Shown: positions 15,986 to 17,410 of the stretch, in pieces
Layout of the letters: each line of letters opens with the position of its first letter
Position numbering within the stretch: position 1 is the stretch's first letter
The notes under the pieces: model-generated
What the model was told of the DNA's origin: nothing
Databases searched by the model: none
Seen by the model: only the letters and a program-made list of their open reading frames with translations
Program-made: the position numbers and the translations under genes
Assembly: GCA_026417625.1 (NCBI GenBank)
Contig: JAOACW010000006.1
Location: forward strand, 1-64,000
Length of the DNA: 64,000 nucleotides
From: Syntrophales bacterium
Lineage (GTDB): Bacteria; Desulfobacterota; Syntrophia; Syntrophales; UBA8958
Direction of reading: 5' to 3'

Positions 15986-17188
15986 ATGATTTTTCAACCG
16001 GATACGAGCAGGGTTGCCATAATAGGTCCAGGAAGATTGGGGACGGCTTTTGCGTATAAGTTTGGGAGGGATAACAAAAGGGTAACTGTCTATTATCCTG
16101 GTGCCGAAGTTTGTCGGGCAATTAACAGGGAACGTCTTAATCCTAAACATCTGACCCAAGATCTTGCCAGAATATTGGGAGGAATGGATAAAGTTCCCCG
16201 CCTATCTCCCAAAGTGCAAGCTACAAATGATTTGGAAAGAGTGATCGAAGACAACGATCTTGTAATATTAGCTGTGACTATGGACAGGTTGCCAGAGGTG
16301 CTGAATTACATAAGACCTATATTGGCAAGGAAGATCGGAGTTACATGTTTTATATCACCTATAAAAGGGTTGGCTTCTGATGAAATAACGAGGGAGCTCA
16401 TCACCCCATCACAGTTGATTCACCATTACCTTGGTGACATGCGATCAAAGTATGAGCTCGTCTGTATTGGTGGACCTTTCTTTGATATCGATATCGCTTT
16501 GGGTCGTCCTGTGTGTGTGACAGTGGCTGGAAAGAGATCTGTTGCAATGATGATTCGCGAGGAACTGATACGTTTCAATCGTCGTGAACTGAGTTCCTAC
16601 TATAATTTTGATGTTGTTGGTGTGGAAGCGTGTGGTTCACTTAAGAACATCGTCGCTAATATAAAGGGTTTGTCAGATTGCCTGGATCTGGGTGATTCTA
16701 TTCCAGGGACAATATTTGCAAGGGCGGGGGTAGAGATAAGATCTCTTTCCATGATTTTGGGAGGAAGTTTCCAGGCTTTCCAGAGTCAAGCAGGTGTAGG
16801 TGATATGTATGTTACCGTTTCATCATTCGCGAGCAAGAATTACAGGTACGGTAGGTTTTTCTATGAACTTTACAATGGGAATCCCATTGAAACTCACCTG
16901 AAGGTACTGGAGAGGATTGATGGTACGCCGGAGGGTCCCAATACTATCAGGAACGTACATAGATTTCTCGAAAAGAAAAACATGTACAGTCCCCTTTTTA
17001 AGTGTGCTTATAGGTTGTTTAATGAGGGTGGAAATAAGAGGGACATGAGAGAAATGATCATTGAAGCTTGCCAGTTTGACAGAAGAGTTAAAGAGTTTGT
17101 GGGGCCTTTTTCCCGGTTGATGTACCGTTTAATGCCGAATTTCTGGTATCGGAGGGACAAGGGGTTCTTGGCCCATTTAAAAACGTGA
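15986..17188 (+). CDS. NAD-dependent glycerol-3-phosphate dehydrogenase-like protein
   Basis: This 400-residue protein has the GpsA fold. The Rossmann motif is IIGPGRLGTAFA (about 13-24, with GxGxxG-like GPGRLG), VILAVTMDRLPEVL is the second strand, FISPIKGLA the K-loop, and VEACGSLKNIVANIKGLSDCLDLGDSIP holds the catalytic Lys region (GSLKN). SQAGVGDMYVTVSS matches the family G.GDL.VT motif. It is longer than canonical GpsA (about 335), with a C-terminal extension of about 60 residues. It may be a diverged paralogue; the substrate is uncertain. No ribosome site is seen, and the transcript may be leaderless. Confidence 0.78.
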   Translation: MIFQPDTSRVAIIGPGRLGTAFAYKFGRDNKRVTVYYPGAEVCRAINRERLNPKHLTQDLARILGGMDKVPRLSPKVQATNDLERVIEDNDLVILAVTMDRLPEVLNYIRPILARKIGVTCFISPIKGLASDEITRELITPSQLIHHYLGDMRSKYELVCIGGPFFDIDIALGRPVCVTVAGKRSVAMMIREELIRFNRRELSSYYNFDVVGVEACGSLKNIVANIKGLSDCLDLGDSIPGTIFARAGVEIRSLSMILGGSFQAFQSQAGVGDMYVTVSSFASKNYRYGRFFYELYNGNPIETHLKVLERIDGTPEGPNTIRNVHRFLEKKNMYSPLFKCAYRLFNEGGNKRDMREMIIEACQFDRRVKEFVGPFSRLMYRLMPNFWYRRDKGFLAHLKT

Positions 17189-17203: not shown

Positions 17204-17234
17204 TTGACACATCTTTTTTTTTCTGTGCTAAAGT
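17204..17234 (+). promoter_or_regulatory. promoter of the trp leader
   Basis: TTGACA (17204-17209) and an extended -10, TGC-TAAAGT (TG at 17226-17227, TAAAGT at 17229-17234), with a 19-base spacer. The expected +1 falls about 7 bases after the -10, on the ATG of the leader peptide at 17241. Confidence 0.6.
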
Positions 17235-17240
17235 GGTTTT

Positions 17241-17312
17241 ATGTCAAAAATGTATTCTACGGGTTTCAGCTTTAAACGCTGGTGGTGGCGGGTAGATAAA
17301 GTCTGCCCATAG
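17241..17312 (+). CDS. trp leader peptide with three tandem Trp codons
   Basis: The 23-codon ORF reads MSKMYSTGFSFKR-WWW-RVDKVCP and ends with TAG at 17310-17312. Codons 14-16 (17280-17288) are TGG TGG TGG. It lies directly before an alternating hairpin array and a T-tailed terminator in front of trpB2, the classic design of a ribosome-sensed tryptophan attenuator. The ATG has no ribosome site, and the promoter puts +1 at about the ATG. A second in-frame ATG is at 17250. Confidence 0.85.
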   Translation: MSKMYSTGFSFKRWWWRVDKVCP

Positions 17313-17410
17313 CCAAAGAGTATCTAAAAAAGGTCATGGGCAGGCGAGGGAAGCCTCCCGTGACCACTGGAGGTTTAAAGGCCATGGGAGGTTCCCATGG
17401 TTTTTCTTTT
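17301..17410 (+). promoter_or_regulatory. tryptophan attenuator (alternating hairpins and terminator)
   Basis: Five segments can pair in competing ways. A (17301-17310) pairs with B (17336-17345): 8 perfect bp plus two. B (17332-17345) pairs with C (17353-17365): 13 bp with one bulge. C (17352-17362) pairs with D (17383-17393): 11 bp with two G-U. D (17382-17389, ccatggga) pairs with E (17393-17400, tcccatgg), followed by TTTTTCTTTT: the terminator. A ribosome at the leader stop masks A, favouring B:C and then the terminator. A ribosome stalled on the Trp codons leaves A free for A:B, freeing C for C:D, the antiterminator. Pairings were found by eye. Confidence 0.8.
17382..17410 (+). terminator. 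attenuator terminator hairpin
   Basis: An 8-bp stem (17382-17389 with 17393-17400) with a 3-base loop is followed directly by TTTTTCTTTT (17401-17410). It lies 33 bases before trpB2. Confidence 0.85.

Follow-up and report, generated by a model that had tools for sequence, protein, structure and literature searches.

A putative six-segment tryptophan attenuator of the his type precedes a stand-alone trpB2 gene in Syntrophales

The trp leader of Escherichia coli comprises four segments (PMC1183508). The his leader of enterobacteria has six, with AB, CD and EF set against BC and DE, and its attenuation is stronger without a translating ribosome (PMC10989985, PMC1183508); according to one model, the added his-leader hairpin reduces basal readthrough in an operon that has no repressor (PMC1183508). 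Among Actinobacteria, predicted attenuators of trp operons include that of trpB2A in Corynebacterium diphtheriae and were described as classical, with one antiterminator and one terminator (PMC1262725). Here, we analyzed the leader of a lone trpB2 gene on a contig of a Syntrophales bacterium (the window being the whole 64,000-nt stretch of this contig under analysis). Very probably, this leader brings about ribosome-mediated transcription attenuation: it would sense charged tRNA-Trp and control trpB2 via a six-segment relay. The basis for this reading comprises its parts, their conservation and the pairings predicted under masked ribosome footprints.

The locus shares features with all three systems. 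Like the his leader of E. coli and Salmonella, it has six segments in the same alternation (A:B, C:D and E:F against B:C and D:E), an additional hairpin lying after the first one and ahead of the terminator, and predicted termination when untranslated. The his leader, however, carries seven His codons and precedes an operon, whereas here three Trp codons precede one gene, and no sequence relation between the two was found in the Rfam his leader search. With the E. coli trp leader, it has in common consecutive Trp codons, a short peptide and, here as a prediction, antitermination on stalling, but segments I to IV of that leader contrast with six conserved segments here, which sets the locus apart from the classical four-segment trp attenuator; E. 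coli also has TrpR, which was not found in the source genome. In C. diphtheriae, a Trp leader peptide and a terminator likewise lie upstream of a gene named trpB2, which there shares an operon with trpA and here stands alone (PMC1262725). Rfam gave no match at gathering threshold in this part of the window or at the other loci scanned, including the trp leader and his leader families, and the sole match at E ≤ 1 was an unrelated sRNA at 19.7 bits. In the open-access literature, we found no such leaders described for Deltaproteobacteria, Geobacter or tandem terminators, which is weak evidence of novelty. No Rfam family corresponds to the element, which we regard as a new family that belongs to an established class, ribosome-mediated transcription attenuation, and that is conserved across the order; a lone trpB2 is an unusual target of attenuation, and a his-type architecture is here applied to tryptophan.

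The features are compiled in Table 1. As the original prediction had stated, trpB2 is preceded by a T-tailed terminator and, before it, by a 23-residue leader in which three TGG codons follow one another; this short ORF thus repeats the codon of the amino acid that the gene's own product makes. The ORF runs from an ATG at 17241 to a TAG at 17310–17312. Between it and trpB2 lies an intrinsic terminator of hairpin and T tract (17377–17410; called at 17377–17405 by a terminator scan). The pairings A:B, B:C, C:D and D:E, likewise foreseen, are all present and mutually exclusive, and E:F forms the terminator. In the window, GGGTAGA (17290–17296) is also able to pair with segment B. The leader region folds 4.35 s.d. 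below dinucleotide shuffles (z = −4.35; lower than all 200). Upstream, a promoter-like TTGACA and an extended −10-like TGTGCTAAAGT are separated by 19 nt, a spacer because of which the pair was missed by a consensus promoter scan. This pair would place the transcription start at ~17241, so that translation may truly begin at the second ATG (17250, giving 20 residues) or the leader may itself be leaderless; no strong Shine–Dalgarno sequence was seen ahead of the start in the window. A TGTGYTA motif ~70 nt upstream of the Trp codons is repeated in many relatives.

Table 1 Coordinates of the trpB2 leader, its gene and the trpE-operon leader of the same genome. Positions are those of the window unless a locus is named.
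Feature	Positions	Strand	Basis or remark
Promoter-like TTGACA	17204–17209	+	Read from sequence
Extended −10-like TGTGCTAAAGT	17224–17234	+	Read from sequence
Leader ORF, 23 codons, MSKMYSTGFSFKRWWWRVDKVCP, stop	17241–17312	+	Sequence; frame conservation
TGG TGG TGG, three consecutive Trp codons	17280–17288	+	Sequence
Segment A, GGCGGGT	17287–17293	+	Pairs with B; overlaps the last Trp codon
Segment B, GTCTGCCCAT	17301–17310	+	Ends at the leader stop codon
Segment C, AGGTCATGGGCAGG	17331–17344	+	Partner is B or D
Segment D, GCCTCCCGTGACCA	17353–17366	+	Partner is C or E
Segment E, GCCATGGGAGG	17381–17391	+	5′ arm of terminator and 3′ arm of antiterminator
Segment F	17393–17401	+	3′ arm of terminator
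T tract of intrinsic terminator, TTTTTCTTTT	17401–17410	+	Sequence
trpB2, stand-alone tryptophan synthase beta-like enzyme, 453 aa	17443–18804	+	NCBIfam
trpE-operon leader	L116:5510–5690 (G000:C3, ~105509–105689); WWW leader L116:5510–5569		R1 match

The product of trpB2 scored above cut-off with NF009057 (745.7 bits) and TIGR01415 (672.5 bits) and under cut-off with the trpB1 model TIGR00263 (155 bits). The gene passes the curated TrpB2 score and is sited outside the trp operon with its trpB1. The source genome (~1.79 Mb, 32 contigs), with Syntrophales metagenome-assembled genomes as its closest named relatives, carries a complete trpEGDCFBA cluster, including trpB1 and trpA, on another contig behind aro genes. 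A stand-alone TrpB2 is usually guessed to scavenge indole. The leader provides regulatory evidence for a role of TrpB2 in tryptophan supply, with the enzyme expected to be made when charged tRNA-Trp runs low; trpB2 would act alongside a trp operon that has its own Trp leader.

For comparative analysis, 80 trpB2 loci were taken from a one-genome-per-species scan and 30 more from 60 relatives. At 43 distinct trpB2 loci, TGGTGGTGG occurred in an upstream ORF, and a T-tailed hairpin came after that ORF. We aligned 41 leaders from Syntrophales and other Desulfobacterota using MAFFT with no structural guide. The Trp-codon run served as the selection criterion for these leaders; its invariance is by construction and was not counted as evidence. 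The Trp frame is opened by an ATG in 38 of the 41 relatives, as compared to 0 and 6 for the other two frames, and the leader stop falls within −6 to +24 nt of the start of B in all 41 (15 and 10 in the other frames). Counted from the first base of the final Trp codon, B starts 15 nt downstream in most of the 41 loci and 12–18 nt downstream in all; a ribosome extends about this far (~15 nt) downstream.

The two alternative structures have both been retained. A:B is paired in 98% of alignment cells, in the 41-leader alignment as well as in 27 further loci described below; the corresponding values for the 41 leaders are 94% for B:C, 82% for C:D, 83% for D:E and 92% for E:F. In the terminated set (A:B, C:D and E:F), 89.2% of cells are paired and covariation scores 0.214 (shuffled, 0.163; slid partners, ≤0.093); in the antiterminated set (B:C and D:E), the figures are 88.3% and 0.159 (shuffled, 0.137; slid, ≤0.083). 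At one pair of B:C, both sides changed in 13 loci. Segments B, C, D and E vary little because each serves two partners, and many of their changes pass through G-U. A covariance model, R1, was built on the terminated set and gathered the 27 loci outside the 41-leader alignment. In these, 91.9% of cells of the terminated set were paired with a covariation of 0.340 and 87.9% of those of the antiterminated set with 0.245, both scores exceeding all 500 shuffles and all slid controls; the antiterminated pairs are absent from R1, the model that aligned these loci. Since shuffles ignore kinship, and conserved pairing partly reflects shared ancestry, the claim of conserved structures rests on shuffles and slid controls combined. 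The compensatory changes that the original prediction would have expected among related leaders were thus seen in both structures, and the mutually exclusive antiterminator is conserved with compensation. Fold energy, conservation of frame and stop, and retention of both alternative structures exclude a chance origin of the leader.

Ribosome positions were modelled by equilibrium folding of each leader, in which the nucleotides covered by the ribosome were barred from pairing. In these calculations, the position of the ribosome decides in silico which structure forms. For transcripts ending after E, medians over 41 loci with a ribosome at the last Trp codon were 0.74 for B:C and 0.78 for D:E; with a ribosome at the stop codon, C:D was at 0.69 and D:E at 0; and with no ribosome, A:B reached 0.67, C:D 0.63 and D:E 0. 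D:E was higher in the stalled state than at the stop in 30 of the 41 loci and lower in one, and ~10 loci gave no clear contrast between stall and stop. The picture was the same across five footprint sizes. For the window transcript extended to the end of F, stalling gave D:E at 0.72–0.79 and E:F at 0.09–0.17, and E:F rose to 0.96 both with the ribosome at the stop and without a ribosome. Scrambling C raised median D:E to 0.39–0.40 at the stop and without a ribosome, and the difference between states was largely gone; D is thus kept from E by C:D. Some predictions for the window were less simple. With the ribosome stalled and F not yet transcribed, a mixed state appeared that combined B:E with C:D pairing. 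Without a ribosome, B:C and long-range base pairs between the leader and D were favoured, yet E:F still formed.

The role of timing differs between the window and most relatives. Once F was transcribed, equilibrium folding of most relatives still preferred E:F when a ribosome was stalled (median 0.89), and D:E was retained only in the window and a few other loci. D:E must therefore win kinetically in most relatives, where we infer that the antiterminator is the structure that forms first. To win by forming first is usual for antiterminators of attenuators.

Together, anatomy, conservation and masked folding support the originally proposed tryptophan-sensing, ribosome-mediated attenuator before a stand-alone trpB2, and most likely transcription of the gene would depend on a ribosome stalling for want of tryptophan. 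As modelled, a ribosome short of tryptophan would stall on the UGG codons and mask A; B:C could then form and leave D free to pair with E, and D:E would block the terminator E:F, so that RNA polymerase would read into trpB2. A ribosome that reaches the stop codon would permit C:D and E:F to form, and an untranslated leader would allow all of A:B, C:D and E:F; in both situations, transcription would end. The middle hairpin C:D would act as a relay that holds D off E unless a ribosome is stalled, and it should keep basal readthrough low. Translation of the leader, folding in pace with transcription and the response to tryptophan are inferred from sequence comparison and equilibrium folding.

The original prediction had read the same pairings as a five-segment chain, in which an extra step inverts the logic and both a stalled ribosome and absent translation give readthrough. 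The pairings A:B, B:C, C:D and D:E do exist, and the constrained folding it called for bore out the contrast of stall and stop in the 41 loci and in the window, with readthrough predicted for the stalled ribosome and termination for the ribosome at the stop. E, however, pairs with F too, a fifth pairing that makes six segments. Two segments, or one hairpin, are thereby added to the classical four, and because six is an even number the classical logic is preserved; an odd number would invert it. Moreover, the leader without a ribosome was predicted to terminate, both by E:F in the window and by the median D:E of 0 across the 41 loci; in most loci, A:B leaves C available, C:D then forms and E:F comes next. 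Readthrough in the untranslated state is not supported, and the inverted chain is very improbable. A looser arrangement would make the choice between B:C and C:D irrelevant. In that case, the outcome of D:E versus E:F would be set mainly by transcription speed, and C:D would serve only as a pause hairpin that keeps ribosome and polymerase in step. Such a hairpin causes a pause in the known trp and his leaders (PMC1183508), and timing must matter, since for most loci equilibrium folding favours E:F even on stalling. We nevertheless regard this arrangement as unlikely, as B:C is conserved as well as the other pairings, including the both-side changes noted above, and as scrambling C largely abolishes the difference between states.

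Other explanations dispense with the leader peptide as a sensor. A same-strand gene upstream ends at 17188, ~190 nt before the terminator, which could in principle be the ordinary intrinsic terminator of that gene and the WWW ORF a chance occurrence; the retention of frame, stop position and alternative pairings over the 41 and the 27 loci, along with the promoter-like motif between the upstream gene and the leader, leaves this account scarcely credible. In other phyla, trp genes are controlled by T-boxes and TRAP, and a riboswitch, a T-box or a protein-bound, TRAP-like leader might be considered here as well. No Rfam family was found at threshold at this locus or in eleven other loci scanned, though, and conserved in-frame Trp codons with a stop beside B are the mark of ribosome sensing, so that we give this possibility almost no weight.

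The element is widespread among relatives. For 44 of 53 trpB2 genes in genomes searched for gene and element alike, an R1 match lies on the same strand 28–329 nt upstream (median 68); in the other nine relatives with trpB2, the R1 search detected no element. R1 matched 151 of 155 genomes of the order at E ≤ 0.01, and those matches that were checked preceded trpB2 when strong and trpE or other amino acid genes when weaker. Among 395 sampled genomes of the phylum, 72 matched at E ≤ 1e-6, the strong ones again preceding trpB2. The model and the leader set provide a resource for a family absent from Rfam. Directly upstream of trpB2 at two loci (L008 and L038), the leader is deleted and just a damaged terminator persists beside the upstream gene or promoter, an apparent decay of the element. 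At another (L006, 85% protein identity), neither leader nor terminator was seen upstream of trpB2. At L043, ~150–50 nt upstream of trpB2, a WW leader (VEWWATLRPARC) is present and C:D is the sole T-tailed hairpin; this leader looks like a four-segment version.

TrpR scored above cut-off in 6 of 60 relatives, with none above it in the other 54. The six genomes (G011, G016, G031, G034, G048 and G056) passed the Pfam cut-off, and in five of them the gene lies within a few hundred bases of trpB1. A strict rule by which six segments occur only where TrpR is absent was rejected: G011, G016 and G056 have both TrpR and the trpB2 element. The family provides a natural test of the idea that, in the absence of a repressor, an additional hairpin reduces basal readthrough (PMC1183508).

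The trpEGDCFBA operon of the source genome has its own WWW leader (MKCVELIQRESSWWWCSEK, stop) and two T-tailed hairpins before trpE. It resembles the trpB2 leader in its WWW peptide and T-tailed hairpins and was likewise found with R1. In this leader, C:D itself is T-tailed and is followed by the second T-tailed hairpin, and, unlike for the trpB2 leader, D:E is not predicted (0.03). Two T-tailed hairpins with near-identical, exchangeable arms occur in 19 of 20 weaker R1 matches from the order (L181–L200) versus 2 of 41 trpB2 leaders. The contrast suggests that the relay hairpin of the trpB2 leader may once have been a terminator. Of 16 tandem-terminator leaders, about half were predicted to form D:E on stalling, and the first hairpin formed even in the stalled state; in some, a single stalled ribosome is predicted to undo the second terminator via D:E. 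A domino reading for all of these leaders is only partly supported by that proportion. A possible, rather tentative scenario is that the relay arose in Desulfobacterota from two near-identical terminator hairpins with arms able to exchange partners, the first of which lost its T tract before trpB2 and turned into a pure relay, and that attenuation by Trp, Phe, mixed aromatic and Ile/Val leaders forms a network throughout the clade that takes the place of repressors. If this holds, the his-leader design arose independently, by convergence.

Further candidate leaders with other codon runs were observed in the source genome, in which the DAHP synthase, binding-protein and acetolactate synthase genes mentioned below were named from sequence. 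A leader with mixed Tyr, Phe and Trp codons (MDRPQLISTRYFWFGYFYVGRSAHCAPRFLT, stop; L176, G000:C3:97032–97140) precedes a DAHP synthase-like gene and is a candidate attenuator sensing three aromatic amino acids; L195 and L198 have similar leaders. A leader with Ile and Val codons (MAMGTPSCGIVNVVVVRRGTAAR, stop) and a T-tailed hairpin precedes an acetolactate synthase-like gene (L177, G000:C1:129812–129906). Leaders rich in Phe codons, such as FGFCFFFSF, and tandem hairpins lie before a periplasmic binding protein gene (L175, G000:C9:48164–48298; L185, L193 and L197). The one in the source genome precedes an ABC substrate-binding protein, PF13458 was confirmed by Pfam on a relative, and the protein is a candidate Phe-controlled transporter. 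Lastly, leaders with three or four Trp codons were found at L181, L183 and L192 (also L186 and L188). Wherever the gene downstream of leaders of this type was read, it belonged to PF13557 (Phenol_MetA_deg), which suggests that this family, whose function is poorly understood, may serve Trp or indole uptake in these genomes.
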